Positions 1 through 31,991 of a stretch of DNA of 31,991 nucleotides are shown one piece after another. The notes under the pieces are model-generated. The model did not search any database. It was not told where the DNA came from and saw nothing but the letters and a program-made list of their open reading frames with translations. The first letter of the stretch is position 1; the number at the start of each line of letters is the position of its first letter. Source of the stretch: a virus; IMG/VR virus record IMGVR_UViG_3300048121_000680, positions 1 to 31,991 of that record. One strand, 5' to 3'. The position numbers were made by a program, and so were the translations under genes.

Positions 1-99
1 TTAACATCTGCAACTGCTAAGTCAAAAAAACCTAAGAAAAAAATACAATCGCGTGGATTCAACGACAGCTATAAGCCTAATATTAAGGAAATTGATTGA
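1..99 (+). CDS. 3' end of the HNH endonuclease gene (partial copy)
   Basis: This frame gives the last 32 residues and TGA stop (97-99) of the HNH nuclease that is complete at 31595-31963. It is present only because the circular contig overlaps itself. The tail is lysine-rich and looks like a basic, probably flexible, DNA-binding extension. The TGA overlaps the ATG of the next gene (TGATG), as expected for translational coupling. Confidence 0.9.
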   Translation, partial: LTSATAKSKKPKKKIQSRGFNDSYKPNIKEID

Positions 100-127
100 T
101 GTATAAACGTAACAAATACAACGCCAT
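1..127. repeat. Left copy of the 127-bp terminal overlap
   Basis: These bases are identical to 31865-31991, so the contig closes into a circle of about 31,864 bp. A length of exactly 127 equals a common maximum k-mer size of de Bruijn assemblers. The repeat is therefore most likely an assembly overlap and not a biological direct terminal repeat. It contains the 3' end of the HNH nuclease gene and the start of the DUF1064 gene. Confidence 0.95.
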
Positions 128-428
128 CAAAGTTAAAGATGATGGCTACACATTTGACAGTAAGCGTGAACACGCAAGATATTTATATAACAAGCAAAGA
201 TTAAAGGATGGTGAGATAACAGAACTTGAGATACACCCGGTATATCAGATATTAGTTAATGATCAAAAGATATGTAGATATACTGCTGACAGCCAATATA
301 AGAATAAAGAAGGCACATTAATAGTGGAAGATGTTAAATCACCTATAACTGCTAGAATGCCTAGGTTTCGGCTTATAAAGAAGCTCATGAAGGCTGTGCA
401 TAATATAACAATTTTAGAGGTATACTAA
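99..428 (+). CDS. DUF1064 family protein, predicted phage endonuclease
   Basis: A 109-aa protein of the phage DUF1064 family, which is predicted to be a PD-(D/E)XK-type nuclease related in role to Holliday-junction resolvases. Visible family hallmarks are an N-terminal KYNAIKV...FDSKREHARY block, a central 'RYTADSQY' strand and a 'VEDVKS' motif that would supply the acidic and lysine active-site residues. The ATG at 99 overlaps the stop of the HNH gene; a TTG at 96 is an in-frame alternative. It ends one early block, next to a hairpin. A role in trimming recombination intermediates or packaging substrates is an inference from family and context. The assignment to DUF1064 is firm, the biochemical role less so. 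Confidence 0.85.
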   Translation: MYKRNKYNAIKVKDDGYTFDSKREHARYLYNKQRLKDGEITELEIHPVYQILVNDQKICRYTADSQYKNKEGTLIVEDVKSPITARMPRFRLIKKLMKAVHNITILEVY

Positions 429-465
429 AAAAAAGGGCAGTAGAAAGGATTAAAAACTACTGCCC
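427..465 (-). terminator. Intrinsic terminator read on the minus strand
   Basis: GGGCAGTAG (435-443) and CTACTGCCC (457-465) form a perfect 9-bp stem with a 13-nt loop. Eight A residues (427-434) lie on the left side, so the minus-strand transcript would end as stem plus U8, a textbook rho-independent terminator. Read rightward there is a strong hairpin but no U-tract. No minus-strand gene is recognised nearby, so it would stop leftward antisense transcription or an unseen leftward RNA. The rightward hairpin may still protect the 3' end of the DUF1064 transcript. Confidence 0.75.
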
Positions 466-521
466 AGTTGTCTGCGATCATAGGGGAGGAAAACAAGCAG
501 ACACACATATTAATAAAGATA

Positions 522-551
522 TTGACGTAATTGTCTATATGCGATTACAAT
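522..551 (+). promoter_or_regulatory. Strong sigma70-type promoter for the replication block
   Basis: TTGACG (522-527), an 18-bp spacer and TACAAT (546-551) each match the consensus at five of six positions. The predicted start is near 558, giving a leader of about 18 nt to the ATG at 576 that includes the A-rich AAGGA ribosome site. A perfect 7-bp inverted repeat, TAATTGT (528-534) and ACAATTA (547-553), covers the spacer and the -10 box and is a candidate operator. A second inverted repeat (TGTCTGC 469-475 / GCAGACA 497-503) lies upstream. Confidence 0.7.
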
Positions 552-575
552 TAAACTGTAAAAAAGGAAAACAAA

Positions 576-1331
576 ATGAGCTTACCATATTTTAATTACT
601 ACCCAAAAGACATGGGCTACAAAACAATGCACCTAACTTTAGCAGAGTTTGGCGCATACAACAGACTGCTATCACTTTGCTGGACTACACCGGGATGCAC
701 CATCCCAAAAGACATTGAATGGATTGCCAGAAAAATGCTTATTAGATCAGAGCAAGATAAAGCTGTGTTGTTGGCAATTTTAGATGAGTTTTTTATTGTT
801 ATAAAAGGGCAATATGCAAATAAGAGATTGCTAGAAGAATATAAGAAAAGTGACAGTAAGTATAAAATAAAAGTTAAAGCAGCTAAAAAAGGGGGAGCAG
901 CTACAGCATTGAAATATAAAGAAAAAGATAGCGCCAACAGGCTTGCAGATGATAAGGCCATAAGGCTTGCCAACCAGAACCAAGAACCAGAACCAGAACC
1001 AATTATTAATAATATACTATACAGAAAATGGAGGCCAAAAACATTAAATGCATCAACTAAGACAGCGCAGATGGTTCGTGATCATATGAGCAAAGATGTT
1101 TACGAGTTAGAGCTGGAAAAGTTTGTAGAATTTCACATAGACAATAAAACTGAGTCTACTGATTTTAACAGGCAGTGGCGTACTTGGTTAAAAAACCATT
1201 TCACATACAATGACAACAACAAAAAAGGAAAACAAAATGTCAGAAATAATAAAACTAACAAATACGCGCAAATCGGTGAGCAAAGACGTGCTAATCGGGG
1301 AAACTTGCTTAAAGAGTATCAACAGTCTTAA
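576..1331 (+). CDS. DUF1376/DnaT-like replication initiation protein
   Basis: A 251-aa protein. The N-terminal ~90 residues (SLPYFNYYPKDM, then a winged-helix-like 'LAEFGAYNRLL..CW') match the DUF1376/YdaU domain found in phage replication proteins. A lysine-rich linker and a repetitive 'NQNQEPEPEPI' hinge follow. The C-terminal part (about 145-205) has the pattern 'RKWRP...DFNRQWRTWLKNH', as in DnaT-like and other phage replication proteins that bring the host helicase to the phage origin. The start follows a clear A-rich AAGGA site 15 nt below the predicted transcription start. The gene itself carries iteron-like repeats followed by an AT-rich stretch (930-1020), which may be the origin. 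It overlaps the next gene, its likely partner, by 95 bp. Confidence 0.8.
   Translation: MSLPYFNYYPKDMGYKTMHLTLAEFGAYNRLLSLCWTTPGCTIPKDIEWIARKMLIRSEQDKAVLLAILDEFFIVIKGQYANKRLLEEYKKSDSKYKIKVKAAKKGGAATALKYKEKDSANRLADDKAIRLANQNQEPEPEPIINNILYRKWRPKTLNASTKTAQMVRDHMSKDVYELELEKFVEFHIDNKTESTDFNRQWRTWLKNHFTYNDNNKKGKQNVRNNKTNKYAQIGEQRRANRGNLLKEYQQS
930..1020. repeat. Iteron-like repeats with AT-rich tract inside the replication gene
   Basis: Direct repeats AGGCTTGC occur at 939-946 and 963-970, exactly 24 bp apart. A run of AACCAG/AACCAA hexamers follows at 972-1002, and then a nearly pure A/T tract at 1001-1020. Repeats beside an AT-rich unwinding element inside the initiator gene is the arrangement of the lambda origin within gene O. 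Here the repeats also encode the RLA and EPEPEP hinge residues, so the origin assignment is an inference. Confidence 0.35.
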
Positions 1332-1719
1332 AGGCTGGCCCAGAGATTTTGACTGTGCGCAAGATAAACAGATGGCAGCTGGGCAAAAGAAAAACATAGA
1401 GAAAGTCAAAGAGCATTATCTTACTACATTACAGCCAGCTAAAGCTAAAACTATATTAGGCTGCATTGAACTGCTTGAAAGCAGATACTATGAAGTTGCA
1501 AGACCGCCTGAGCTACAAAAGCAATTAGACCGCGAGTGGATTGCTGACATGAAAGACTATCCAGAAGATTTGATACATCAAGCTTGCGTGAATTGGCGAA
1601 ACTCAAGTCAAAGCTTTGCACCTAGATCAGCTGGCGTATTGATGGAGTCAGTCAAGCCTGAGTATGTTAGACGCAAAAGCTTATATTTAAAAGCTAAGTC
1701 AGTGCTGGAGTTGATATAA
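1237..1719 (+). CDS. Putative replication accessory protein (helicase-loader-like)
   Basis: A 160-aa protein encoded mostly downstream of, and partly inside, the replication initiator gene. The ATG at 1237 is preferred over the upstream ATG at 1210 because it follows an AAAAAAGGAAAACAAA leader identical to the one before the gene at 576. The C-terminal half, around 'LDREWIADMKDYP', 'ACVNWRNSSQSFAPRSAG' and 'LMESVKPEYVRRK', resembles small alpha-helical phage proteins (lambda P-like or other loaders) that follow the initiator gene. I cannot assign a family firmly. The overlap with the initiator and the TAATG link to the next gene indicate co-translation in a replication cassette. Confidence 0.6.
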   Translation: MSEIIKLTNTRKSVSKDVLIGETCLKSINSLKGWPRDFDCAQDKQMAAGQKKNIEKVKEHYLTTLQPAKAKTILGCIELLESRYYEVARPPELQKQLDREWIADMKDYPEDLIHQACVNWRNSSQSFAPRSAGVLMESVKPEYVRRKSLYLKAKSVLELI

Positions 1720-1952
1720 TGCTTATTAACAAAATACATGAAGAAGTACATAGAGCACCTTGGCTAGGTTTAAAGCAAATAGCGTTTGCTTGTAATACTA
1801 CCCCGGAAAGCGTCAGCTCGACACTATCCCGGTGCGGTACGTCATTTAATAAATTGAAGGCGCAAGAGATACGTAAGCTAAAGGATTTTGAGATAAACAG
1901 TAAAAGTTTTTTAGCTAAAGATGCTATAGAAGCTATGAGGTCTATAAAATAA
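1719..1952 (+). CDS. Small HTH-like DNA-binding protein
   Basis: A 77-aa basic protein whose ATG overlaps the previous stop (TAATG). Residues about 16-45 ('LGLKQIAFACNTTPESVSST' then 'LSRCGTSFNKL') read as a helix-turn-helix: a helix, a turn at NTTPE and a recognition helix. The rest is a charged helix. It is the last gene of the short replication cassette and is followed by an 83-bp gap with a near-palindromic site. A local regulatory role is possible, but no family was recognised. Confidence 0.55.
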   Translation: MLINKIHEEVHRAPWLGLKQIAFACNTTPESVSSTLSRCGTSFNKLKAQEIRKLKDFEINSKSFLAKDAIEAMRSIK

Positions 1953-1995
1953 ACGTAAAAAAAATACATTTAACACTTGTACATGTAAAAAAAAT

Positions 1996-2009
1996 AACAC
2001 ATATTGTGT
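1996..2009. promoter_or_regulatory. 14-bp near-palindromic operator candidate, copy 1
   Basis: AACACATATTGTGT is the exact reverse complement of the site at 4061-4074. Its core, ACACA-TAT-TGTGT, is an inverted repeat. It lies in the 83-bp gap between 1952 and 2036, over a possible weak -10 (TATTGT, 2002-2007) that has a TTGTAC (1977-1982) 19 bp upstream. Sharing the site with the late promoter region suggests one dimeric regulator controls both places. Confidence 0.5.
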
Positions 2010-2035
2010 AAATAGACAAAAACAAAGGATTTAAA

Positions 2036-2212
2036 ATGGACAAGCGTATAAAATATGAATTTATTTATTTAGATTTTGATCTAATGGATAAACAAGAAAA
2101 AGCAGAGGCACTTGCAGAGGGCAAAAAAGTATTGCGTGATTTATGTAATTTTGTAGTGCTTTCTACATTTGTTTTAACATTTACAGCAACAGCATTAGTG
2201 TGGGTAGGTTAG
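2036..2212 (+). CDS. Small membrane protein, 58 aa
   Basis: A short gene after the leader 'AAAGGATTTAAA' with ATG at 2036. The first ~35 residues are charged (MDKRIKYEFIYLDF, then a KQEKAEALAEG helix). The last ~22 (FVVLSTFVLTFTATALVWVG) form one hydrophobic span at the very C terminus, so it is probably tail-anchored with most of the protein in the cytoplasm. The stop is two bases before the next ATG. No homologue is recognised. The position in an early block of tiny genes fits a host-takeover or membrane-modifying role, which is an inference. Confidence 0.6.
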   Translation: MDKRIKYEFIYLDFDLMDKQEKAEALAEGKKVLRDLCNFVVLSTFVLTFTATALVWVG

Positions 2213-2213
2213 T

Positions 2214-2468
2214 ATGATGAGCACAGCAGCAATGACAGAAGAAGAGTTAAATAAGTATTATGATGTGTATGGTGAGTTTGAAAATTTGCCATTTGATATG
2301 GAAATTATGATGTATAGATTGCTTGATACATTGACAACTGAGCAAATAGAAGATGTGTTAGACCAAATAGATGCAGAAGGCTTACAAGAGCGAGAGTGGA
2401 AGATATTAGAGCGGAAACATGACAGGCAGTTTGGCGGTATGTACGCAACCGAAGAAACAGAGTATTAA
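2214..2468 (+). CDS. Small acidic protein of unknown function
   Basis: An 84-aa very acidic protein (ATG at 2214, with a second in-frame ATG at 2217) rich in Glu, Asp, Tyr and Met. It is predicted to be helical, with a segment 'LTTEQIEDVLDQIDAEGLQE' in the middle. The gene begins one base after the upstream stop and is followed two bases later by another tiny gene, so it sits in a tightly packed operon. Acidic phage proteins of this size often mimic DNA or bind host enzymes, but nothing in the sequence proves that here. Confidence 0.6.
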   Translation: MMSTAAMTEEELNKYYDVYGEFENLPFDMEIMMYRLLDTLTTEQIEDVLDQIDAEGLQEREWKILERKHDRQFGGMYATEETEY

Positions 2469-2470
2469 TC

Positions 2471-2581
2471 ATGAATAAAAGCAAGCATAGTTATAATAAA
2501 CCGAATAGTTTTTCGGGGTATTTTGCTAAAAAAGGCATAATAATTTTTATAGTAACTATCTTGCTTTATGGTTTAATTTAG
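2471..2581 (+). CDS. Very small membrane protein, 36 aa
   Basis: A 36-codon reading frame with ATG two bases after the preceding stop. Residues 1-21 are polar and basic (MNKSKHSYNKPNSF...AKK). Residues 22-36 (GIIIFIVTILLYGLI) are wholly hydrophobic and end the protein, giving one membrane span with the positive N terminus inside. Support comes from the tight spacing, the abrupt polar/hydrophobic division and the similar design of the gene at 2036. Its small size leaves real doubt about expression. Confidence 0.45.
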   Translation: MNKSKHSYNKPNSFSGYFAKKGIIIFIVTILLYGLI

Positions 2582-2594
2582 CTAGTCTTAGATT

Positions 2595-2834
2595 ATGGAT
2601 AACACTGTCAAAAGATATATACAGTATGTAGAGGTCACAGGAACTGATGCTGTTGTTGTATTAGACGACGGCAGTGTGTTAGGCGGTGTTTTTAGTGTGC
2701 AAGCTACAACTACTGCCCCGATAGAAGGTGAAGAAGAAACGCCATCACAAAGCTTTGCTAATATATTAGCCTACATACTACATGAAAATGTTACCTTTAC
2801 TGATATACAAACAGCAGACAAAACACAGCACTGA
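2595..2834 (+). CDS. Small protein of unknown function
   Basis: A 79-aa protein. The N-terminal half is beta-like ('YIQYVEVTGTDAVVVLDDGS', then VLGGVFSVQ), resembling a small SH3- or OB-like barrel. A Pro/Glu-rich turn and a helix (FANILAYILHE) follow. No family is recognised. It lies between a microprotein gene and the GcrA-like gene, with two bases to the latter, and no clear ribosome site precedes its ATG. Confidence 0.6.
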   Translation: MDNTVKRYIQYVEVTGTDAVVVLDDGSVLGGVFSVQATTTAPIEGEEETPSQSFANILAYILHENVTFTDIQTADKTQH

Positions 2835-2836
2835 TA

Positions 2837-3505
2837 ATGGCAAAGCATTGGTCAGATAGTAAAAAAGAGTTAGCTGCTAAGTTATGGGCTAATGCAGAAT
2901 TAAACACACATCAAATTGCTGAAAGATTAGGCTGTACTTATCATGCGTTGCAATTATTTGCATACAGAAACAGGCATATATTACCCAAACGCGGTTATGG
3001 TCAGATGCACAGACCTAATAATAAAAAAATAAAATTAGTAGCTGCAAAGCCTGTACAGATCACACGTTATAAAGATCCTGTTGCTATACACAAAGCGAGC
3101 AAGCTTTGGCATGATGGCTACGCTGTTGCGGCTATAATAAAAACACTAAAAATGGGCGACAAGACTTTCGTAAAAATGAGAAAGCACAGCCCTACAAGCT
3201 TCCCCAAACGTAATAAAAACAACAATGTGGTAAATATTGAATGGACAGATAAATTTATCAAAAGGCTAGGTTTTAACACAGTTACTGAATTAGAAGATAA
3301 TCTGGTCACAGCATCGTTTGCAAAACCCGGTAAAGGTTTTTATCTAAGAACAACAAGCGGTGATGGTTGGCTACATATGAGCGGTAAAACTGTGACAATA
3401 CAAAAACGCTACAGATACCGGGGCACATTGAGACAAGCGCTTAACATGAAAAAGACTTGTAGTTTTGAAGTAGATATAGTGCCAGAAGATAAAAGCAATG
3501 ACTAG
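2837..3505 (+). CDS. GcrA-like DNA-binding protein
   Basis: A 222-aa protein. The N-terminal ~50 residues ('HWSDSKKELAAKLWANAELN', 'THQIAERLGCTYHALQLFAYR') follow the N-terminal helix-turn-helix pattern of GcrA (WT.E....L..LW..G.S...IA..LG), the alphaproteobacterial cell-cycle transcription factor. A second HTH-like segment spans about 75-115. The C-terminal half (130-222) is basic and beta-rich and was not recognised; the C-terminal sigma70-binding part typical of GcrA was not seen. It overlaps the NusG-like gene by 8 bp, so two transcription regulators are made together just ahead of the late operon. A role in switching phage or host promoters is inferred. Confidence 0.65.
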   Translation: MAKHWSDSKKELAAKLWANAELNTHQIAERLGCTYHALQLFAYRNRHILPKRGYGQMHRPNNKKIKLVAAKPVQITRYKDPVAIHKASKLWHDGYAVAAIIKTLKMGDKTFVKMRKHSPTSFPKRNKNNNVVNIEWTDKFIKRLGFNTVTELEDNLVTASFAKPGKGFYLRTTSGDGWLHMSGKTVTIQKRYRYRGTLRQALNMKKTCSFEVDIVPEDKSND

Positions 3506-4055
3506 CTGGCACATACTCAAAACCAGAACTAACAGAGAGCTGTCTATACATGACTTTTTAGATAAAGAAGGCATCAGTTGTTACACACCATTTGACACAC
3601 GCATTTTAAGATCAAGTCATGTGCAAAGAAAGGCGCGGCAAAGAACAACATATATAGTCCCGGTGTTTACAGGTTATTTGTTTTTCAAGATAGATATACG
3701 CACAGACTTACCAAAGCTTTCTATAGCAACACAAAAGTGTAAAGATATTTATGGTATCATAATGAAAGACGATAGTGATTTGTATCGCATAAAAGATGAT
3801 GTCATTGATTCATTACGCGTTGCTTATCCTACAGGCTACATACCTAACGTACACATAGGCAAAAACAGGCAGCGCAAGATTGATTATAGTGCGCCAAGAT
3901 TTATTAAAGGCCAAAAGGTAAGGTTTAAAGCTGGGCCATTGCAAGGCATAGACTTAACAGTAGACAGGCAAATGAATGACCAGATAGACTTATTGATGGA
4001 GTTTTTGTCTAGTACCCGGAAGGTAACAGCTATGATTGATAGTATAAAGGTGTGA
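3498..4055 (+). CDS. NusG/RfaH-like transcription antitermination protein
   Basis: A 185-aa protein with NusG architecture. Residues 3-110 form an NGN domain: 'SWHILKTRTNRELSIHDFL', 'GISCYTPFDTRI', then 'YIVPVFTGYLFFKIDI', matching the W-x-V...P-L/V-F-x-G-Y-L/V-F pattern. Residues about 133-180 form a KOW domain ('FIKGQKVRFKAGPLQGIDLT' ... LLMEFLSSTRKV). NusG-family proteins clamp RNA polymerase at its clamp and gate and suppress pausing. Phage or operon-specific paralogues such as RfaH are recruited by a DNA element. The gene ends directly before the late promoter and a GC-rich leader with an ops-like GGTAGNNT core, so it is the likely late antiterminator. The family call is strong, the target is inferred. 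Confidence 0.85.
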   Translation: MTSWHILKTRTNRELSIHDFLDKEGISCYTPFDTRILRSSHVQRKARQRTTYIVPVFTGYLFFKIDIRTDLPKLSIATQKCKDIYGIIMKDDSDLYRIKDDVIDSLRVAYPTGYIPNVHIGKNRQRKIDYSAPRFIKGQKVRFKAGPLQGIDLTVDRQMNDQIDLLMEFLSSTRKVTAMIDSIKV

Positions 4056-4060
4056 TATAA

Positions 4061-4074
4061 ACACAATATGTGTT
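4061..4074. promoter_or_regulatory. 14-bp near-palindromic operator candidate, copy 2
   Basis: ACACAATATGTGTT is the exact reverse complement of 1996-2009. It starts five bases after the NusG-like stop codon and ends six bases before the -35 box of the predicted late promoter, a position suited to an activator or repressor. Candidate binders encoded nearby are the GcrA-like protein, the 77-aa HTH protein and the Cro-like protein. Confidence 0.5.
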
Positions 4075-4080
4075 GCCATA

Positions 4081-4109
4081 TTGACACAAAACCCCATATA
4101 TAGTAAATA
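4081..4109 (+). promoter_or_regulatory. Predicted late operon promoter
   Basis: A perfect -35 box TTGACA (4081-4086) is followed by a 17-bp spacer and a weak -10 TAAATA (4104-4109). A strong -35 with a poor -10 fits a regulated promoter. The predicted start near 4116 places the GC-rich leader at the very 5' end of the transcript of the 22-kb late operon. Confidence 0.55.
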
Positions 4110-4116
4110 TACGTTA

Positions 4117-4187
4117 GATCGGGCCGCGCGTACTTTGGTAGCCTCGCCCCCTAGCTGTACGCATTACAGCAGTAAGGCTTGCTATGC
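4117..4187 (+). promoter_or_regulatory. GC-rich structured late leader with ops-like core
   Basis: The 46 bases 4117-4162 are 67% GC, far above the genome. GCGTAC (4128-4133) pairs with GTACGC (4157-4162) around a 23-nt loop carrying GGTAGCCT (4137-4144). That loop element matches the GGTAGNNT core of ops/JUMPstart elements that recruit RfaH. A second bulged hairpin uses GCAT/AGCA (4161-4171) with TGCT/ATGC (4180-4187). An alternative GGGC/GCCC pairing (4121-4124 / 4146-4149) would compete with the first stem. It sits between the NusG-like gene and the operon that would need processive antitermination. Confidence 0.45.
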
Positions 4188-4213
4188 TTTTGAATAATAG
4201 GAGTTTTTAAAAA

Positions 4214-4321
4214 ATGGTTTTATGTAAATCCTGTACATCCCCGGTAACGTGTAAGAATAACAAACGCTGCATGAAAAAAGGCACATATAAACGCAAAACA
4301 GTAAAAAAGCGTAGATATTAA
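4214..4321 (+). CDS. Cys-rich basic microprotein, 35 aa
   Basis: A 35-aa protein with an excellent ribosome site, AGGAG (4199-4203), ten bases before the ATG. Four cysteines (C4, C7, C13, C19 in MVLCKSCTSPVTCK...RCMKK) suggest a small zinc knuckle. The rest is a Lys/Arg tail (YKRKTVKKRRY), so nucleic-acid binding is likely. It is the first gene of the late operon, 48 bp before the small terminase gene, where tiny Cys-rich proteins are found in other marine podophages. Function is unknown; a role in packaging or RNA binding is only a suggestion. Confidence 0.6.
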   Translation: MVLCKSCTSPVTCKNNKRCMKKGTYKRKTVKKRRY

Positions 4322-4369
4322 CCAACCATAAAACATAAGAAAAAGTCTAAAGTAGATAAAAGTAGAAAC

Positions 4370-4660
4370 ATGGCAGAAAAAGCTAAACGTAAAAAAACAG
4401 GTGGCCGCAAAAAAGGCGTACCTAACAAGCAAACTGCACTACTAAAAGATGCTATATTAACTGCTGCACAAAGAGCTGGTGGCAATGAAGAAGATGGTAT
4501 GGTTAAGTATTTAACAGATCGCGCATTAGACAATCCAACTGCATTTATGGGATTGCTAGGGAAAGTGCTACCGATGCAATTAGCTAATGATGATAGCGGT
4601 GAGCCATTTAAAGTTGTTACACGCATAGAGTTAGTAGCGCCAGAAAATGACGACACTTAA
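4370..4660 (+). CDS. terS: Terminase small subunit
   Basis: A 96-aa protein with the pattern 'GGRKKGVPNKQTALLKDAIL', then a GG-rich turn, 'YLTDRALDNPTAFMGLLGKV' and 'LPMQ', seen in small terminase-like proteins that precede terL in alphaproteobacterial and marine phages. The basic N terminus fits recognition of phage DNA, and the helical middle fits ring formation. It overlaps terL by 14 bp, the usual TerS-TerL arrangement. Small terminases diverge strongly, so the call rests on the motif and the position. Confidence 0.75.
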   Translation: MAEKAKRKKTGGRKKGVPNKQTALLKDAILTAAQRAGGNEEDGMVKYLTDRALDNPTAFMGLLGKVLPMQLANDDSGEPFKVVTRIELVAPENDDT

Positions 4661-5963
4661 CTTAGAGTTACCAGCAAAACTAATACCTGTATTTGAAGGT
4701 GACGCAGAAGTGCGCGGTGCTTATGGCGGCAGAGGTAGTGCTAAAACACGCAGCTTTGCGATGATGAGTGCGGTTAGAGGCGCTATCTGGGCTAGTGAAG
4801 GTAATAGTGGACAGATACTGTGTTGCCGGGAGCACTTAAACTCACTTGATGACTCATCACTTGCAGAGGTAAAAGCTGCAATACTTGGCAACGAATGGCT
4901 AACTAGCTGTTACGATGTTGGCGAAAAGTATGTAAGAACAGCAGACCATTTGCCCGGTAGGATAGATTACACGTTTGCTGGACTAAGGCATAATCTTGAA
5001 AGCATTAAGTCAAAAGCGCGTATTATGCTGTGTTGGGTAGATGAGGCTGAGCCTGTTAGCGAGTTAGCATGGGCAAAGTTATTGCCTACAATACGTGAAG
5101 TAGATTCAGAGGTTTGGGTAACATGGAACCCGGAACGTAAGAACAGCGCAACAGATAGACGTTTTAGACTAACACCGCCAGCTGGCAGTAAAATAGTTGA
5201 AATGAATTGGAAAGATAACCCTTGGTTTAATAGAACCCGGTTAGCCAGCCAAAGATTAGAAGATCAAGAAAAACGACCAGACAGCTATGAATGGATATGG
5301 GAAGGCGACTATGCCAGTGTGCATGAGGGTGCGTATTTTAGTAAGTTACTAGCTAATGCTAAACGTGAAGGCCGCATAGTTGATATGTTACCAATAGATC
5401 CAGCACTACCTGTTTATGGTTTTCACGATATTGGTGGCTCTGGTGCTAAAGCTGATAGTTATACTATTTGGTTGGCTCAATTTGTAGGTGATTGGATAAA
5501 CGTGCTAGATCATTACATAGCACAAGGTCAGGTGCTAAGTTATCACATCAATGAGATGCGTAGACGATGGCCTCACGCTATTATGCAGCTACCGCATGAT
5601 GGTGTTAATGAGAATAGCTGGACAGGTAAAAGAGTAGAAGATCATTGGAGAGATGGCGGGTTTGAGGTGTTAAAACCATTACCAAACCAAGGTAAAGGCG
5701 CAGCAATGCAACGTGTTGAGGCTGTAAGGCGCATATTGCCTAAATGTAAATTTGTAAAAGATAAGACTGAAGCTGGGCGTGCTGCATTAGGATGGTATCA
5801 CGAAAAAAGACCATCAGATGGTAGAGATGTAGGACTTGGCCCTAATCACGATTGGTCATCACATGATGCTGACAGCTTTGGCCTAATGGCGCTGATGTCA
5901 GATAAATTTAAAATAAAAAAGGCAAAGCCGTTGGTAATGCCTAATTATGGAAGTGCAATATAA
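4647..5963 (+). CDS. terL: Terminase large subunit (ATPase-nuclease)
   Basis: A 438-aa DNA packaging motor of the PBSX/Terminase_3-type family. Residues about 22-40 carry the Walker A loop 'GAYGGRGSAKTRSF'. 'IMLCWVDEAEPVS' (about 127-139) is Walker B with the catalytic Glu, and 'VWVTWNPE' is the coupling motif. The C-terminal RNase H-like nuclease shows 'YGFHDIGGSGAKADSYTIWL', 'LPHDGVNENSWTGKRVEDHW' and 'HDWSSHDADSFGL' for metal-binding Asp residues. Length and domains are complete. It works with the small subunit and portal to cut and pump DNA into proheads. The ATG lies inside terS and the gene runs 17 bp into the portal frame. Confidence 0.95.
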   Translation: MTTLNLELPAKLIPVFEGDAEVRGAYGGRGSAKTRSFAMMSAVRGAIWASEGNSGQILCCREHLNSLDDSSLAEVKAAILGNEWLTSCYDVGEKYVRTADHLPGRIDYTFAGLRHNLESIKSKARIMLCWVDEAEPVSELAWAKLLPTIREVDSEVWVTWNPERKNSATDRRFRLTPPAGSKIVEMNWKDNPWFNRTRLASQRLEDQEKRPDSYEWIWEGDYASVHEGAYFSKLLANAKREGRIVDMLPIDPALPVYGFHDIGGSGAKADSYTIWLAQFVGDWINVLDHYIAQGQVLSYHINEMRRRWPHAIMQLPHDGVNENSWTGKRVEDHWRDGGFEVLKPLPNQGKGAAMQRVEAVRRILPKCKFVKDKTEAGRAALGWYHEKRPSDGRDVGLGPNHDWSSHDADSFGLMALMSDKFKIKKAKPLVMPNYGSAI

Positions 5964-8010
5964 TATGCTAAAATATGATAATGATTTAGGCGTAGATGAT
6001 TCAAACAACACTGCAAGCGGTGTTGATGATGCTGGCAATGATGATTTGCTGTCAATGGTACGTGCTGAGTTTTCACAAAGCATTGGTATGTCACATGATA
6101 GCGATTTAACGTCATCAAGAGAAATAGCGCTGCGTTATTACAATGGCGATGTATTTGATGTATCTGTATTTGGACAGCGTAGTAAAACTGTAAGCACAGA
6201 CATAGCAGATAATATTGAGGCAGTGTTGCCTGACTTGGTTGATGTTTTATCCGGGGAAGATGTTGCTGTATTTCAACCTGTAGGTATTGAAGATGAGGAA
6301 GCTGCACAGCAAGAAACAGACTATATTAATCATGTTTTCTTTGAGCAAAACAACGGCTTTCAAATATTATATGATGGAATCAAAGAAGCGCTGTTATTAA
6401 AAACAGGTATATTTCGTTGGTACTGGGAAGAAGATACGTACACAGACACTAAAAACTTTGATCAACTAGATGGTCTTGGTTACATGACTTTGCTAGATCA
6501 GGGCTATCAATTAACGGAAGGCGTTGTAGAGGAAATTGGTGAAGATGAGATAACAATAACAAACGCTGTGTTTAGTAAAGAAATAACAAAAGGCTGCGTA
6601 AAAGTTGAAACAATACCAAGCGAGCGCTTTGCTGTTGGTAGAGATACAGTAAGACTTAGAGATGCAGCGTATTGCGTTGCCCAAATTGAAACACGTAAAC
6701 AGGATTTGCTAGATAAAGGTTATGACCCAGAAAAGGTAAACAACCTAACTAATGTTGACGCTATGGATAATGAAACCATAGCTGATGCTAGAGATGTTGA
6801 TACCATTGATGATAACTACAGCAACAGCATAGGGCCAATGCAGCAAGTCACAATACTTGAGCATTACATACGTGTTGAAGGTCAGATAAAACGACTAATT
6901 ACAGATTATGACAGCACTACAGTTTTAAGCGTAGAAGATGCGCAATATATACAATACTCAAGCATTTGCCCATATCCCATGCCGCACAGGTTTTATGGTT
7001 TATCGTTGGCTGACAAGCTTATTGAAGTGCAGCGTGTAAAAACAGGCATACAACGTCATATGCTAGATGAATTGTCATTTAGCCTAAATCAACGCATGGA
7101 AGTATCAGAAGATGGTGCAAATGAAAACACTATATCTGATTTGCTTAACAACACGCCCGGTGCGCCGATACGATCACGCAATGGCGGTGCCGTAAGACCA
7201 GTTCGGCTGGCTGGCAGTGGTTTTGATTATTTGTCTGCATTAGAAACAGCAAATGTCATGGCGGAGCGCCGCACAGGTATAATGCGCGGTGAAACAGGTA
7301 TGAAAGCTGACACACTGCACGATACTGCATCTGGAGCGCTAACAATGCTTTCTGAAGGCAAGAAGCGTACAAGATTAATGGCACGTATATTTGCTGAAGG
7401 CGGCATCAAGGACATGATGCTTGGCATACATTGCTTGATCAAAGAATATGCAACAGTAGCTGATTATGTAAGGCTTAGAGGTAAGTGGACACAAGTAGAC
7501 CCTACTAAATGGGGTAGACGTAACGATATGACTATTGAGATTGGTGTTGGCGCTGGTGGTAAACGACAAGAGGCTATGTTGGCGCGTGAAGTTATTAATT
7601 TACAGGCGCAAATTGTACAGCAACAAGGCGGTGCGCCAGAAGGATCACTAGCAACACCGCAGAGCATACACGCCGCGTTAGTTAGGTTTGCAGAGAAAGC
7701 TGGCATGAAAGCGCCAGAACTTTACTTCCCTGCACCACAAGAAATGCCTGAAGATGGGCCGCCGCCGCCAACTGATGCACAAGTAAAAGCACAGGCTGAT
7801 GCTCAATCTAAACAGCAAGAGATGGAGCTAAAGAAATACGAGATAGACAGCAAGATGCAGTTGGAGCGTGAAAAGTTAGCGCAAGCTGATGCAATTGAGC
7901 GTGACAAGCTCGAGCGTGAAACAGCACTAGCTATTGAGATGCGTAAATATGAACTACAAATGAAAGAAAAGATGTCATCATTTAGACCGGGAGGTAGCCT
8001 AATTACATGA
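5947..8010 (+). CDS. Portal protein (P22-like family)
   Basis: A 687-aa portal subunit, which forms the dodecameric gate at the capsid vertex through which DNA enters and leaves. The N-terminal part shows 'SREIALRYYNGDVFDV', typical of P22-like portals. The core has 'PHRFYGLSLADKLIEVQRVK' followed by TGIQRHMLDELSFSLNQRMEV, the conserved stem/wing region. Residues about 610-675 are a long Gln/Lys/Glu coiled coil like the P22 barrel. The start may be the ATG at 5947 or the one at 5965, which lies just after the terL stop; neither has a good ribosome site. The P22-type portal together with absent tail-tube genes supports a short-tailed virion. Confidence 0.92.
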   Translation: MEVQYNMLKYDNDLGVDDSNNTASGVDDAGNDDLLSMVRAEFSQSIGMSHDSDLTSSREIALRYYNGDVFDVSVFGQRSKTVSTDIADNIEAVLPDLVDVLSGEDVAVFQPVGIEDEEAAQQETDYINHVFFEQNNGFQILYDGIKEALLLKTGIFRWYWEEDTYTDTKNFDQLDGLGYMTLLDQGYQLTEGVVEEIGEDEITITNAVFSKEITKGCVKVETIPSERFAVGRDTVRLRDAAYCVAQIETRKQDLLDKGYDPEKVNNLTNVDAMDNETIADARDVDTIDDNYSNSIGPMQQVTILEHYIRVEGQIKRLITDYDSTTVLSVEDAQYIQYSSICPYPMPHRFYGLSLADKLIEVQRVKTGIQRHMLDELSFSLNQRMEVSEDGANENTISDLLNNTPGAPIRSRNGGAVRPVRLAGSGFDYLSALETANVMAERRTGIMRGETGMKADTLHDTASGALTMLSEGKKRTRLMARIFAEGGIKDMMLGIHCLIKEYATVADYVRLRGKWTQVDPTKWGRRNDMTIEIGVGAGGKRQEAMLAREVINLQAQIVQQQGGAPEGSLATPQSIHAALVRFAEKAGMKAPELYFPAPQEMPEDGPPPPTDAQVKAQADAQSKQQEMELKKYEIDSKMQLEREKLAQADAIERDKLERETALAIEMRKYELQMKEKMSSFRPGGSLIT

Positions 8011-8249
8011 CCAAAAAGGACAAAGCAGAAGCAAGTGCTGATGCAGTACAGGCAAAACGTGAATTGAAGCTGACAACCGCAGCACTAAAAAACATGGAAG
8101 AAACAGCAATGGAAAACTTGCTAAAAACTAAACCAGAGGAAGAACATAAAAGACGTGAACTCATAGCGCTTATCAATGTGTGCCGTGAGATTCCACGTAA
8201 ACTAAACAACTACATTGACACTCATAAGATCAACCAAGAAGGAGTCTAA
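8007..8249 (+). CDS. Small helical protein between portal and scaffold
   Basis: An 80-aa, strongly charged, fully helical protein (KKDKAEASADAVQAKRELK..., ending in 'INVCREIPRKLNNYIDTH'). The ATG overlaps the portal stop (ATGA), so translation is coupled. Small helical proteins are often found at this position in P22-like head modules. A role in assembling the portal or scaffold is possible, but no family was recognised. Confidence 0.65.
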   Translation: MTKKDKAEASADAVQAKRELKLTTAALKNMEETAMENLLKTKPEEEHKRRELIALINVCREIPRKLNNYIDTHKINQEGV

Positions 8250-8252
8250 GAA

Positions 8253-9224
8253 ATGAGTAATGAAGCCCCCTTAAGTATCGACCAAGCTGTAAGCGAGCTA
8301 ACACAGTTAGAACCGCCAAAGCCTGAAGAAGCAGAAACTACAAATGCTGTAGAGGAAGTAGAAGCAGAAGATACTGAACTAGATGGTGAACCAGAAACCA
8401 TCGACACTGATGAGGAGCCTGACGATAGCGAGGTCAACCTTGAAGATGAAGAAGTTGAGGAAGTTGAAGCGGAAGATGATGTTCCGTCAATCGATGCACC
8501 CCAATTCTGGACAGATGGCGCAAAAGATGTTTTCTCATCACTGCCTGCTGAAGCACAATCTGTTATTGCAGATGAAGTTAAGCGGTCACAAGCTGAAACA
8601 ACTAGAGCGCAACAAGCTGCGGCTGAAGCTACCAAGCAATCGGTACAGCGCATGGAAGAACTACACAATGTAATTGAGTCAGTGCACACTGAAACAGCTA
8701 CGTTGGATAGATTATTTGATCAGCGTTGGAAAGATGTAAACTGGGTAGAGATGTCACAAAGAAACCCATCTGAATACTTGCAAAATAAAGCGTTGTTTGA
8801 AGCTGAGTCGCAAGCCCTAGAGGTTCATAAAGAATCTGCGGTCACTGCACAAAAAGAATATGAACAACAGATATTGCAAGAAAACTTTGCAAATGCACCT
8901 AAGTTATTCCCAGATTTATTAGATGTTGTGAAAGGCCCGGAGATACAACAAACATTGACTAAGACGTTGTTATCACTTGGCGCGACACCTGAAGAACTCA
9001 GATTTGCAAAACCCGGAATGTTAGCTCTGGCATATGATGGTATTAAATACCGGGATAGTCAGAAGAAACTTTCAAAAACTAGCGCAAAACCTGTGCCCAA
9101 GGCAATCAAGTCAAAAGGCAAATCAGCAGGCAATGCAAATTCATTAAGAAAAGCTCGTGCTGCAAAGCGCTTCAACAAGTCTAATTCATTAGATGATGCT
9201 GTAGCGTTATTGTTATCGAGTTAG
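8253..9224 (+). CDS. Capsid scaffolding protein
   Basis: A 323-aa protein lying directly upstream of the major capsid gene. Residues 20-85 are extremely acidic (repeated EVEAED, DTDEEPDD, LEDEEVEEVEAED). Then comes 'PQFWTDGAKDVFSSLP', a long coiled-coil middle and a basic C terminus ('KALSSG'-free, Lys/Arg-rich, residues about 265-305) that would bind the inner coat surface. This composition and position are typical of scaffolds that template procapsids and leave before packaging. There is no protease motif. A ribosome site (AAGGAGTCTAAGAA) precedes the ATG. Confidence 0.8.
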   Translation: MSNEAPLSIDQAVSELTQLEPPKPEEAETTNAVEEVEAEDTELDGEPETIDTDEEPDDSEVNLEDEEVEEVEAEDDVPSIDAPQFWTDGAKDVFSSLPAEAQSVIADEVKRSQAETTRAQQAAAEATKQSVQRMEELHNVIESVHTETATLDRLFDQRWKDVNWVEMSQRNPSEYLQNKALFEAESQALEVHKESAVTAQKEYEQQILQENFANAPKLFPDLLDVVKGPEIQQTLTKTLLSLGATPEELRFAKPGMLALAYDGIKYRDSQKKLSKTSAKPVPKAIKSKGKSAGNANSLRKARAAKRFNKSNSLDDAVALLLSS

Positions 9225-9246
9225 CTATCAATAGGAGATTTTTAAG

Positions 9247-10206
9247 ATGGCTGCACCAACAAACACAATCGTACCAGCAGGTGTTGCTGGCAACAGAGAA
9301 GACCTCTCAAACCTCATTGAGCGCGTTGCTCCTGAGAAAACACCATTTTGCTCAAACATTAAAGGCGGCGGCGTAAAAGTTACTGCTACAAGACATGAGT
9401 GGCAAACAGAAACACTAGCAACTCCTGATGCTGCTTCAGCACAAGTTGATGGTGATGATACTACATCATTCGAAGCTAACACAAGAACACGTGTTGCTAA
9501 CCGCGTACAAACTAAAAAACGTGCGGTAGTTGTAGCTGGCATACAAGAAGCTGTTGACTCAGCTGGCGTAGCGTCAGAAATGGCTAGACAAAAGCTCATC
9601 AAAGGTATTGAGCTAAAGCGTGACTTTGAAGCTCGCTTCATTGGTAACTTTGCTTCATCAGAAGAATCAGGATCAACTGGGCGTAAAGCTGCTGGTGCAT
9701 TAGCATGGGCAACTTCAAACGTATCACGCGGATCAGGCGGTGCTAATGGTGGATACAGCGGAACAGATTGTGCTGCTGCTACAAATGGTACACAGCGTAC
9801 TTTCACTAAAACTATTATGGATTCCGTAATTCAATCTGGATTTAATAATGGCGCTACATTCTCACAAATCTACATGAGTGCTGCTCACAAAGCTACATTC
9901 TCTGGATTTGCTGGACTTGCAGCTAACCGCTATGAAATCAACGGATTAGATGAAGGTGTAGTTGTTGGCGGTGCAGACGTTTATCTGTCTAACCACGGCA
10001 AAATGACTATAATACCAGTACAGTATGGCCTAACACGCGATGCTCTATTTGTAGACCCATCCATGTGTACTTTAGGTACATTACGTTCACCACGTTATGA
10101 AGAACTATCCAAAACTGGTGACAACGAAAAAGGTCAAATCCTTGGTGATATGACGCTAATCGTTAAGAACGAAAAAGGTCTAGGCGTAGCCGCAGACTTA
10201 ACCTAG
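9247..10206 (+). CDS. Major capsid protein (DUF5309/SU10-like, HK97 fold)
   Basis: A 319-aa coat protein. The N terminus, MAAPTNTIVPAGVAGNREDL, then 'LIERVAPEKTPFCSNI' and 'ATRHEWQTETLATPD', matches the DUF5309 family, which includes the phage SU10-type major capsid protein. The C-terminal part has 'EINGLDEGVVVGGADVYLSN' and 'GTLRSPRYEELSKTGDNEKG', the usual P-domain end of this family. TAGGAG (9231-9236) precedes the ATG by ten bases, and codon use looks like that of a highly expressed gene. A strong hairpin lies immediately downstream. Confidence 0.92.
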   Translation: MAAPTNTIVPAGVAGNREDLSNLIERVAPEKTPFCSNIKGGGVKVTATRHEWQTETLATPDAASAQVDGDDTTSFEANTRTRVANRVQTKKRAVVVAGIQEAVDSAGVASEMARQKLIKGIELKRDFEARFIGNFASSEESGSTGRKAAGALAWATSNVSRGSGGANGGYSGTDCAAATNGTQRTFTKTIMDSVIQSGFNNGATFSQIYMSAAHKATFSGFAGLAANRYEINGLDEGVVVGGADVYLSNHGKMTIIPVQYGLTRDALFVDPSMCTLGTLRSPRYEELSKTGDNEKGQILGDMTLIVKNEKGLGVAADLT

Positions 10207-10222
10207 TATTAGGTAACTACCG

Positions 10223-10244
10223 GGGGTTGGCATTTGCCAGCCCC
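10223..10244 (+). terminator. Hairpin after the major capsid gene
   Basis: GGGGTTGGC (10223-10231) pairs with GCCAGCCCC (10236-10244) around an ATTT loop: nine pairs, one of them G-U. It is followed by TATATATA and not by a U-run. It is therefore more likely a partial terminator or a 3' stability and processing element that raises capsid mRNA relative to downstream genes. It lies in the only longer gap between head genes. Confidence 0.55.
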
Positions 10245-10264
10245 TATATATACAGGAGAAAGAT

Positions 10265-10483
10265 ATGCCAAAGGCAAAAGCAGCACCAAAAATTAAAGCT
10301 AAAGTAAAACATGATCGCGTTGAGTGTATAGTCACCAAAAAGGGCGGCATAGCACAAATAAGAACAGGCAAATTAAGCGCAGATGGTACTGAGTTATGCT
10401 ATAAAAAAGGCGATATCTTTAAAACAGACGCAAATCAGGCTAAACTGTTAGAGAATAACGACCTAGTTGTTGCAAGGGATTAA
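10265..10483 (+). CDS. Small basic virion-module protein
   Basis: A 72-aa protein starting with a Lys/Ala/Pro-rich arm (MPKAKAAPKIKAKVKHDR). A compact beta-like domain follows ('VECIVTKKGGIAQIRTGKL', 'LCYKKGDIF', then ANQAKLLENNDLV). CAGGAGA precedes the ATG. The position after the capsid gene, before the adaptor, suggests a capsid decoration or head completion protein. I did not recognise the family. Confidence 0.6.
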   Translation: MPKAKAAPKIKAKVKHDRVECIVTKKGGIAQIRTGKLSADGTELCYKKGDIFKTDANQAKLLENNDLVVARD

Positions 10484-10484
10484 C

Positions 10485-10814
10485 ATGAGTAGTTTTAAAC
10501 CATTTTCATATGATGCAGCTACAGGCATTAAGCACAGCCTTGCAGTTGATAACACAACTGATGAAATGTATGTAAAAACAGAACAAGATGTTACTAAAAT
10601 ACTAGATAGCAACAAGCGGCAACAATATGATGCTAAGGGCACATTAGGCAAAGCTGATTTAGTTAAAGTTGGCACAATACCATTAGGGCTAATACAGCAT
10701 TGGAAAGCAACAGAAGGCATTGATGTGTTTAATCAAGACCATTGGCCTAAAGTTGTAGAAAAATTAAACAGTAATGAATTTCAAGCATTGCGAGTAGCGC
10801 AGTTTAAGGTGTAG
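10485..10814 (+). CDS. Putative head completion/decoration protein
   Basis: A 109-aa protein. The ATG at 10485, one base after the previous stop, is preferred over an upstream TTG at 10467. It contains 'KHSLAVDNTTDEMYVKTEQD', then 'ILDSNKRQQYDAKGTLGKAD', and a C-terminal 'DVFNQDHWPKVVEKLNSNEF'. Proteins of this kind follow the capsid gene in several alphaproteobacterial podophages and are presumed virion proteins. Function is inferred from position only. Confidence 0.6.
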   Translation: MSSFKPFSYDAATGIKHSLAVDNTTDEMYVKTEQDVTKILDSNKRQQYDAKGTLGKADLVKVGTIPLGLIQHWKATEGIDVFNQDHWPKVVEKLNSNEFQALRVAQFKV

Positions 10815-10816
10815 TT

Positions 10817-11428
10817 ATGGCATTTGCAAATCTAGGCGAATTAAAGACAGTTATAAATGACACGTTAAATCGTACTGATTTGACTGCACAAATACCTAAT
10901 TTCATCAAAATGAATGAAGAAAGCGTAAACCGCAAAGTCAATGTATCTGAGATGGAAGAATACACCGAGTTTACTATAAACGTAGGTCAAACAACATTGC
11001 CTACAAACTTCTTAGAGATGCGTAATATACAGATGAAAAGCTCTGAATATCCATTGCAGTATGTACCGCATAACTCATTGGATGGCATAGGCGCTGACTC
11101 AGGTATACCAAGATTTTACTCAATACAAGGCACTAAACTATTATTCTATCCGTTTCCCCCAGATGCTACTATTGGCATTATGAGATACTTGGCTGAAGTA
11201 ACGCCTTTAGTAAATGATGTAGATACAAATTGGTTGTTAAGTAAATCACCGCAAATATACTTGTATGGTACATTATTACACGCTGCACCATTTTTAAATG
11301 ATGACAGCAGATTGCCTGTCTGGGCTAGTTTGTTTGAAGATGCTGTTAGAGCATTGAACGATCAAGACAAGCGGAGAATGTCAGGAACTAAACCACAAAT
11401 GATAAACGCAACAGCGGGATACTATTGA
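10817..11428 (+). CDS. Head-tail adaptor protein (P22 gp4-like/SU10-type)
   Basis: A 203-aa protein starting 'FANLGELKTVINDTLNRTDL' and continuing 'IPNFIKMNEESVNRKVNVSE', the helical N-terminal pattern of phage adaptor proteins that bind beneath the portal. The middle is beta-rich ('GIPRFYSIQGTKLLFYPFP'), and a helical end carries 'YLYGTLLHAAPFLNDDSRL'. Twelve copies would attach to the portal and accept the tail hub. Its place between the head and tail genes agrees. Confidence 0.8.
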   Translation: MAFANLGELKTVINDTLNRTDLTAQIPNFIKMNEESVNRKVNVSEMEEYTEFTINVGQTTLPTNFLEMRNIQMKSSEYPLQYVPHNSLDGIGADSGIPRFYSIQGTKLLFYPFPPDATIGIMRYLAEVTPLVNDVDTNWLLSKSPQIYLYGTLLHAAPFLNDDSRLPVWASLFEDAVRALNDQDKRRMSGTKPQMINATAGYY

Positions 11429-11429
11429 T

Positions 11430-11966
11430 ATGCCTACAACAACTAACTATGGTTGGACATACAACCTACCAAATACTGCACAAGATACATGGGGCGGTGA
11501 TTTAAACAACACGCAAATAGCGATTGATGCGCAAGTAAAAAGTAATGAAAACCTTGCTAATTCAAAAGCGCCAATAGCAAGCCCTACATTTACAGGCACT
11601 GTTACCGGGCCTACATTTGTTGGTAATCTTACAGGCAATGTTACAGGTAATGTTACAGGCAACGTGACTGGTGCAGTGACAGGCAATGCAACGTCAGCAG
11701 ATAAATGGTCTACTGCTAGAACAGTAACACTAACAGGAGTTGTTACAGGCAGTATAGCATTTGATGGTACAGGTGATTTTACACTAGCTACATCTGTTGG
11801 CACAATAGCAGATGATACACTAACAATAGCGCAAACAAGCGGTCTACAAGCTGCATTAGATAGCAAAGTAGCACACGCAAGCGGCAATGGTAGAACAATT
11901 ACTGTAGGCAATACAGCGCCTACAAGCCCATTAACAGATGACATTTGGTTTGATACAACGGCATAA
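11430..11966 (+). CDS. Tail fibre-like protein with NVTG repeats
   Basis: A 178-aa protein starting 'MPTTTNYGWTYNLPNTAQDT', a head-binding motif frequent in phage fibre proteins. Residues about 63-90 are a short tandem repeat of four-residue NVTG units, followed by 'ATSADKWSTARTVTLTGVV', a motif shared by many trimeric fibres. The C terminus, 'TAPTSPLTDDIWFDT', is a common fibre end. It is much shorter than usual fibres, so it may be a connector or a short side fibre. Stop and next ATG overlap by one base. Confidence 0.75.
   Translation: MPTTTNYGWTYNLPNTAQDTWGGDLNNTQIAIDAQVKSNENLANSKAPIASPTFTGTVTGPTFVGNLTGNVTGNVTGNVTGAVTGNATSADKWSTARTVTLTGVVTGSIAFDGTGDFTLATSVGTIADDTLTIAQTSGLQAALDSKVAHASGNGRTITVGNTAPTSPLTDDIWFDTTA
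11621..11692 (+). repeat. 12-bp tandem repeats encoding NVTG units
   Basis: About six degenerate 12-bp units of the form (A)CAGGCAATGTTA encode LTGNVTGNVTGNVTGAVTGN. The repeat lies within the fibre-like gene. Copy number could change by slippage and alter fibre length. Confidence 0.7.
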
Positions 11967-12430
11967 TGGCGATAAAAACTTATAACGGCACTGCATTTGC
12001 AGACGCAACAGCTAAGTATTACAATGGTAGTGCGTGGGTGGAGCCTAGTAGTGGTGTTAAGCGTTGGAATGGTAGTGCATGGGAAGTTGTTTCTACTGCA
12101 TTTGAAGCTACATTAACGCAAACAACATTGTTTGGCTCTACGTCATACAACTCAACTTTGGGTAGCTACACAGGCGTTACAAGTAGCCCCGGAACAGGTT
12201 ACACAGCAGTGACAGTCACAGGCGGTAAAGCGCCATTTACATATCAATGGTTTTATGTATCTGGCACTGTAAGTAATATCAATCTGTTTCCACAACTGCC
12301 TACTCAGTTCACTACAAGATTTAGTTTTAATTACGCATTATCAGCAGGCAATGCTGTTTATAGATGCCAAGTAACAGATGATGATGGCAACGTAATAAAT
12401 ACAGACACAGTTACAGTGAGTTTTAGTTAA
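11966..12430 (+). CDS. Ig-like domain virion protein
   Basis: A 154-aa protein. The first ~45 residues contain three 'YNG(S/T)A(W/F)' repeats (TYNGTAFADA, YYNGSAWVEP, RWNGSAWEVV), short beta hairpins often found in phage tail proteins. Residues about 70-154 look like an immunoglobulin/PKD-type sandwich ('GGKAPFTYQWFYVSGTVSN', 'AVYRCQVTDDDGNVINTDTV'), with a Trp and a Cys at the positions typical of Ig folds. Ig-like domains on virions are thought to give weak adhesion to cell surfaces or glycans. It overlaps both neighbours by one base. Confidence 0.75.
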   Translation: MAIKTYNGTAFADATAKYYNGSAWVEPSSGVKRWNGSAWEVVSTAFEATLTQTTLFGSTSYNSTLGSYTGVTSSPGTGYTAVTVTGGKAPFTYQWFYVSGTVSNINLFPQLPTQFTTRFSFNYALSAGNAVYRCQVTDDDGNVINTDTVTVSFS

Positions 12431-13908: not shown

Positions 13909-14114
13909 GACTGCCTGACGCAATGCCAACGTATGATCTGATCAATGAAACAGAAACGCGCCGTAATATTACATATGAAATGACGCAAACACGTAAGATC
14001 AATGAAGATATAAATATAAACGCAAGCAATAGATTAATACTTACAAGCCCGAACGGAACACGCTATAGTGCAAGTATTGATAACTCTGGAGTATTAACAT
14101 GGACAGCTCTGTAA
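13905..14114 (+). CDS. Small tail-module protein
   Basis: A 69-aa protein. The beginning is helical ('TYDLINETETRRNITYEMTQ'). The end is beta-like, 'LTSPNGTRYSASIDNSGVLT' followed by WTAL, a motif resembling short tail-associated beta domains. It overlaps the hub gene (ATGA) and the next gene. No family was recognised; a virion component is likely from context. Confidence 0.6.
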   Translation: MRLPDAMPTYDLINETETRRNITYEMTQTRKINEDININASNRLILTSPNGTRYSASIDNSGVLTWTAL

Positions 14115-14470
14115 ATATAGAGAACCATAAAGAGCAAATTGTAAACGCATTGGCGCGATCAGGTCACAAGCATACGTTTGATGACGTTGTAAAGGCTGTA
14201 GCTAATGATGATGCACAGTATTGGCCAGCTAATAACAGCGCTGCAATAACGCAAGTAGCTAAAAAGTCTGATGGCACTGTTGGGTTGAATGTTTGGCTGT
14301 ATGGCGGTGATTTAAAAGACTTTTATCTTTTGGTTGATGCTGCAAAGAAACACGTAAAAGACTTAGGCGGTGACTTTATTATGACATTTGACCACCGCAA
14401 AGGCTGGAACAGATTATTAAAAAAACTTGGTTTTGTTGAGCATGGCAAAACTCTAATATGGAGGCTCTAA
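14099..14470 (+). CDS. GNAT-fold-like protein, possible internal virion protein
   Basis: A 123-aa protein. Its C-terminal half, 'LLVDAAKKHVKDLGGDFIMT', then 'FDHRKGWNRLLKKLGFVEHG' and KTLIWRL, matches the end of GNAT acetyltransferase folds (helix, strand, 'LGF', strand). The acetyl-CoA P-loop Q/RxxGxG/A is not evident, so it is probably not a working enzyme. T7 gp13-type internal virion proteins have a similar small GNAT-like form in the same gene position. The start lies inside the preceding gene. The stop overlaps the next ATG (TAATG). Confidence 0.6.
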   Translation: MDSSVNIENHKEQIVNALARSGHKHTFDDVVKAVANDDAQYWPANNSAAITQVAKKSDGTVGLNVWLYGGDLKDFYLLVDAAKKHVKDLGGDFIMTFDHRKGWNRLLKKLGFVEHGKTLIWRL

Positions 14471-15387: not shown

Positions 15388-15406
15388 GTACAAGTAAGGT
15401 AAGGTT

Positions 15407-16894: not shown

Positions 16895-16917
16895 TACAAT
16901 AAACACAAGAGATAAGT

Positions 16918-19607: not shown

Positions 19608-19618
19608 TGGAGAGTTAA

Positions 19619-23794: not shown

Positions 23795-23798
23795 GAAC

Positions 23799-31421: not shown

Positions 31422-31422
31422 A

Positions 31423-31963: not shown

Positions 31964-31991
31964 TGTATAAACGTAACAAATACAACGCCAT
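31865..31991. repeat. Right copy of the 127-bp terminal overlap
   Basis: Identical to bases 1-127. It includes the end of the HNH gene and the first codons of the DUF1064 gene (ATG at 31963), whose full copy is at 99-428. Confidence 0.95.

Follow-up and report, generated by a model that had tools for sequence, protein, structure and literature searches.

A NusG-family paralogue and a conserved leader hairpin ahead of the late operon of a podovirus-type phage: a candidate antitermination cassette

Does a NusG-family gene that lies just ahead of the late genes of a phage act on those genes, and if so through which signal? The question is raised by the window studied here, a 31,991-base IMG/VR virus record with a podovirus-type structural cluster, for which a preliminary description proposed a self-contained late antitermination module, that is, a phage NusG with its own loading site of the ops type read by RfaH. 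Known phage antitermination mostly relies on small unrelated proteins or on RNA, with host NusG or without it, and our literature search found no paper on a phage-encoded NusG acting on late genes. Part of the proposal stands, namely a specialised NusG beside the late operon and a conserved leader, whereas the ops assignment is weak.

The NusG-family gene and its helix-turn-helix neighbour

Two overlapping genes precede the late operon:

2837-3505, + strand: 222-residue protein with two helix-turn-helix (HTH) domains, a likely DNA-binding partner (HTH_23 match, gene linkage, AF2 model)
3498-4055, + strand: specialised NusG-family paralogue of 185 residues, NGN plus KOW (Pfam, PHROG, NCBIfam, AF2/Foldseek)

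The NGN domain of the second product is recognized by PF02357 above the Pfam cut-off (residues 3-107, E 1.5e-10), and nearly the whole chain (residues 2-184) matches phrog_6386, annotated as transcription antiterminator, with an E-value of 1.1e-10. Pfam yields no separate KOW match for this product; the KOW half is identified from a profile alignment that covers the NGN and KOW parts of Aquifex NusG (i-Evalue 0.19 over that stretch) together with the strands that the structural model places at residues 140-179. The AF2 model is of medium confidence (pLDDT 68), and Foldseek places it closest to NusG and RfaH structures from transcription complexes. Its C-terminal domain consists of β-strands 140-143, 152-158, 162-169 and 172-179, with a local pLDDT of only 53-74 and, unlike RfaH, no sign of a helical form. 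The agreement of PF02357, phrog_6386, the Aquifex KOW alignment and the model matches bears out the initial identification of a phage-encoded NusG/RfaH-like protein.

Comparison with the NCBIfam models gives E-values of 3e-14 for UpxY, 2e-9 for LoaP, 2e-7 for RfaH and 0.035 for NusG. The corresponding scores for the first three (53, 38 and 31 bits) all exceed that for NusG (13.9 bits) and lie below the curated cut-offs of 100, 125 and 144.5, none of the four subfamily cut-offs, NusG included, being reached. As judged from these profile scores, the protein is closer to the specialised paralogues than to housekeeping NusG, and it therefore appears to be a specialised paralogue without a named subfamily.

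The HTH gene overlaps the NusG-family gene by 8 bases. The HTH_23 match is weak in the window protein and clear in a homologue (L077, E 4.9e-8) from a sister clade, defined as contigs with TerL 84-85% and NusG 32-40% identical to those of the window; the AF2 model of the 222-residue protein shows two three-helix bundles, at residues 7-44 and 81-117. The linkage is invariable, a NusG paralogue lying directly 3' of the HTH gene in all 25 viral contigs that carry the latter. In the sister clade, the HTH partner of NusG gives a weak GcrA match (E 0.012), and Rhizobium phage RHph_Y1_10 has a gene for a GcrA-like protein (PF07750, E 4e-9; L212:1874-2380) upstream of its terminase region. These matches hint that the HTH protein paired with NusG may be a late activator of a related kind.

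Scans of bacterial genomes found no relatives of the phage NusG. Among other records related through TerL, many of them short fragments, Pfam detected NusG in none of 37, and it was likewise absent from the flanks of those Rhizobium, Microcystis, Paracoccus and Bradyrhizobium phages that were searched.

Promoter, late operon and leader

Downstream of the NusG-family gene, the following features can be distinguished:

4081-4109, + strand: promoter-like sequence, TTGACA at 4081-4086, 17-nt spacer, weak -10 TAAATA at 4104-4109 (sequence and conservation)
4123-4147, + strand: leader element GCCGCGCGT-loop-AGCCTCGC, arms 4128-4133 (G4130 bulged) and 4138-4142, loop 4134-4137 (conservation and predicted pairing)
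4137-4144, + strand: GGTAGCCT, ops-like core (sequence; invariant in close relatives)
4155-4169, + strand: possible second hairpin CTGTA-CGCAT-TACAG, weak
4214-4321, + strand: 35-residue CxxC peptide (MVLCKSCTSPVTCKNNKRC...), first ORF of the late operon (translation; homologous ORF MKPCKSCTSPKTC in the sister clade)
4370-26604, + strand: late operon, comprising a phrog_11043 protein in the small-terminase position, TerL, SU10-type portal, scaffold, major head protein, other virion proteins and a DNA transfer protein

The TTGACA box lies 26 bases past the stop codon of the NusG-family gene, so that the box of the promoter placed within 160 bp of that gene is indeed present, although a consensus scan omits the promoter because its -10 element is weak. 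The promoter-like sequence is kept in the nine close relatives (NusG 94-100% identical to that of the window) and has the counterpart TTGAAT-N16-TAATTA in the sister clade. From 4214 to 26604 the genes run on the plus strand without a switch, in keeping with a 22-kb operon that follows the leader. The accompanying statement that no other promoter is seen in the operon is not confirmed: consensus-like sites do occur inside it, on the scan at a frequency near chance (45 against 32 expected over positions 1-12000, and 47 against 56 over 12000-31991). The reported GC content of 67% applies to the first 41 bases of the leader (68% over 4120-4160) but not to its whole length (48% over 4120-4213).

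The CxxC peptide, which has no Pfam match, opens the late operon in both clades. Three of the close relatives (L009, L010 and L012) carry about 1.4 kb of additional sequence between this peptide and TerL; their small-terminase position is occupied by a different gene, but NusG, promoter and leader are retained. Near the end of the record, following a block of minus-strand ORFs, lies a plus-strand gene for a DNA methyltransferase-like protein (30324-31421; phrog_1008, E 3.6e-29).

The leader is almost unchanged among the close relatives. Within 4113-4148 only positions 4134-4136 vary (TTT, CAA, TTA or TAA), and these fall exactly inside the loop of a predicted hairpin, UAC-NNNG-GUA. As RNA, the stem is predicted to form with a probability of ~0.9 (0.7 in one full-length variant), and as DNA with 0.1-0.75 across the four variants. 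In the window the predicted loop is UUUG and GGUAGC would constitute the 3' arm, paired except for its first G; since GUAGC is thus predicted to be paired, the proposed display of GGTAGCCT in a hairpin loop is unsupported.

The window leader folds with no better energy than shuffled sequences, and the sister leaders are likewise unremarkable. No Rfam family matches the leaders of the window or of L025, L211 and L217, the window leader shows no clear terminator, and the leader element is present in a single copy in the window. GGTAGNNT shows no enrichment across the window (13 sites against 10.7 expected); a copy on the plus strand of the 158-bp leader would arise by chance in about 3% of cases. 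The candidate second hairpin at 4155-4169 is weak, one of its pairs being broken in a close relative (L007, 4166 A to T).

The leader in more distant phages

In sister-clade contigs 3-5 kb separate the NusG gene from the late operon downstream of it, so that adjacency is not strict. The late leader of this clade reads GATGCCGCGCGTTCAAACAATATTGAAGCCTCGCACC and again stands ahead of the CxxC peptide gene. The flanks GCCGCGCGT and AGCCTCGC are identical to those of the window, whereas the stem is UUCAA/UUGAA in place of UAC/GUA and the loop is ACAAUA, CCAAUA or CCAGUA. The sister stem can still pair, one pair having changed on both sides (A-U to U-A) and two further pairs having been gained. The position of GGTAGCCT reads TTGAAGCCT, GGTAG being absent from the sister leader and replaced by TTGAAG. 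Conservation in this clade is far higher in the leader than ahead of the promoter, and one member (L025) has a strong terminator-like hairpin upstream of the promoter; late transcription in the sister clade therefore probably begins at the leader promoter. In the same contig (L025:1900-2240) an 8-bp closing stem (GAUGAUGC/GCGUCAUU) is followed by 9-10 T just before the first ORF. It looks terminator-like, and a leader terminator is possible there, but the energy of the stem is unremarkable and we have discounted the stem with its T9 tract as evidence.

A third lineage is formed by the Sulfitobacter phages pCB2047-A, pCB2047-C, NYA-2014a and phiGT1, whose TerL is 41-53% identical to that of the window. 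All four encode a divergent NusG-family protein at the same place, before the terminase genes, which is missed by PF02357 and found by phrog_6386 (2e-7) and by the UpxY model (8e-7). The phiGT1 gene, phiGT1_67 (MT584811), is already annotated 'RfaH/NusG transcription antitermination protein', its function being undiscussed in two phiGT1 papers; the genes of pCB2047-A, pCB2047-C and NYA-2014a are annotated 'hypothetical'. The divergent genes, for instance at L211:3142-3762 and L217:3004-3621, adjoin a non-coding leader of ~500 nt followed by the terminase genes, with a small ORF in between in phiGT1. These leaders open with GGCGCTACAT(A/C)TGGTAGCCT, an opening kept between phages whose NusG proteins are 75% identical and also across the extra small ORF of phiGT1. 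They contain GCUAC-loop-GUAGC (GCTAC-loop-GTAGC as DNA) in the context of GGTAGCCT, a stem predicted with a probability of 0.77 in a 45-nt transcript and of ~0.1 in 100 nt. The similarity between the window and Sulfitobacter leaders is equalled by ~10% of shuffles when position is ignored, and the Sulfitobacter GGTAGCCT could alternatively belong to a promoter, TTGCGT-N17-TAGCCT.

By comparison of the leaders, the element that appears common to the three lineages is GC(G)-stem-loop-stem-GCCU. Searches of viral contigs with broad leader patterns gave extra matches that were nearly all due to chance and lay in GC-rich contigs or coding sequence, and a permissive fuzzy scan returned only noise. 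Conservation of the leader in relatives that carry the NusG gene, one of the tests set beforehand, is thus found almost throughout the leader among the close relatives, for the flanks in the sister clade and distantly in the Sulfitobacter phages, with GGTAG lost in the sister clade. Covariation, the other, is seen insofar as pairing is kept through changes in both arms; it is thin, as no more than three lineages are at hand and a single stem pair has changed on both sides.

Possible modes of action

We tentatively favour, with a little less than even confidence, the reading in which the phage NusG paralogue is a late processive antiterminator loaded through RNA at the promoter-proximal hairpin, in the manner of LoaP more than of RfaH with ops. 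The precedent is that LoaP, itself a NusG paralogue, requires a small RNA hairpin in the 5' leader for antitermination (PMC12691694). In such a cassette, the HTH protein and the NusG paralogue would be encoded just upstream of the structural-gene operon, and the HTH protein would assist initiation at the weak late promoter. The late RNA would then fold, within its first 30-40 nt, into the GC(G)-stem-loop-stem-GCCU hairpin as a loading signal, by which the NusG paralogue would be brought, soon after promoter exit, onto the elongating host RNA polymerase, displacing or mimicking host NusG. The polymerase would thereby become processive, by antitermination or an anti-Rho effect, and might cross the 22-kb operon despite Rho or terminators.

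The ops reading first proposed, in which the NusG paralogue recognizes GGTAGCCT as exposed non-template DNA in a complex paused ~28 nt past the start site, is unlikely. GGTAGCCT shares 7 of 8 bases with the ops core GGTAGCGT, is invariant in the close relatives and recurs in the Sulfitobacter phages with a NusG-family protein. However, ops needs a C3:G8 pair around G4, G5, T6 and A7 and a TG pause motif at positions 11-12 (PMC5995543). All variants have T or A at position 3, which makes this pair impossible, and TC stands at 4144-4145 in place of TG. Moreover, GGTAG gives way to TTGAAG in a clade that retains the NusG gene, and in the window GGTAGC is predicted to be paired and not displayed in a loop. 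On these grounds the window sequence is not assigned to ops, although the system, which has the NusG fold in common with RfaH and a leader with a GGTAG core, could work similarly. The retention of the hairpin through changes in both arms is easier to reconcile with RNA folding than with a DNA loop of the ops type.

Alternatively, the hairpin might be a stabiliser of the mRNA 5' end or a translation element, the NusG protein being unrelated to it and acting without a specific site. Stabilising hairpins at mRNA 5' termini sit close to the start site, and the present one begins ~5-12 nt from the start site predicted from the sequence; but the element is seen only in phages with a NusG-family gene, wherever the contig is long enough, and its unpaired flanks are conserved too, which makes this explanation rather improbable. 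Quite improbable in our estimate is a DNA site, either an operator for the HTH protein or a packaging (cos/pac) site beside the terminase genes. An inverted repeat ahead of terminase genes and an HTH gene linked to NusG in 25 of 25 cases would suit it, as would the gene transfer agent (GTA) cluster of Caulobacter, where a promoter palindrome recruits the antiterminator (PMC11150451); yet the arms differ between the clades and still pair, a property of no use to a DNA operator, and the conserved flanks lack symmetry. A put-type RNA, which by itself would modify RNA polymerase while the NusG paralogue works elsewhere, recalls HK022 putL (PMC9378689) in its place just after the promoter and its possible two-hairpin layout, but is very improbable given the unsupported second hairpin, the single copy, the lack of Rfam matches and the dedicated NusG paralogue nearby.

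Returning to the RNA-loaded antiterminator, NusG paralogues with leader elements are already known in RfaH, LoaP and UpxY (PMC7819879). The arrangement of LoaP with the dfn/mln hairpin of Bacillus velezensis resembles that of the window in combining a NusG paralogue, a long operon and a small 5'-leader hairpin (here predicted); LoaP is also among the better-matching NCBIfam models, and the window-type loops UUUG, CAAG, UUAG and UAAG resemble YNNG-type loops. LoaP differs in serving Firmicute antibiotic operons, with a UNCG hairpin and a leader terminator, whereas the window has a phage late operon, a different, non-UNCG predicted hairpin and no clear leader terminator. UpxY, which acts through 5' leaders (PMC7819879), is the best NCBIfam match and its gene likewise adjoins the target operon, but its targets are capsule genes of Bacteroides and the window protein reaches only 53 bits against its cut-off of 100. 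A phage counterpart, phiGT1_67, also lies upstream of a terminase operon, and the leader that follows it contains a GGTAGCCT hairpin; its protein is very divergent and no linked HTH gene of the window kind was seen. HK022 put, lambda Q and GafZ likewise involve loading near the promoter of a long operon, in a phage or a GTA, but put acts as RNA alone, and lambda Q and GafZ are not NusG paralogues.

The broader proposal of a two-gene late switch in a lytic-type lineage, with the HTH protein for the promoter and a NusG paralogue loaded by an RNA hairpin, forming a class apart from lambda N, lambda Q, put and RfaH/ops, is possible, if somewhat doubtful. If true, phages would have taken over the universal elongation factor itself, and the cassette would offer a compact system for how NusG paralogues choose between RNA and DNA signals. 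It would also explain the expression of a 22-kb structural operon in marine podoviruses.
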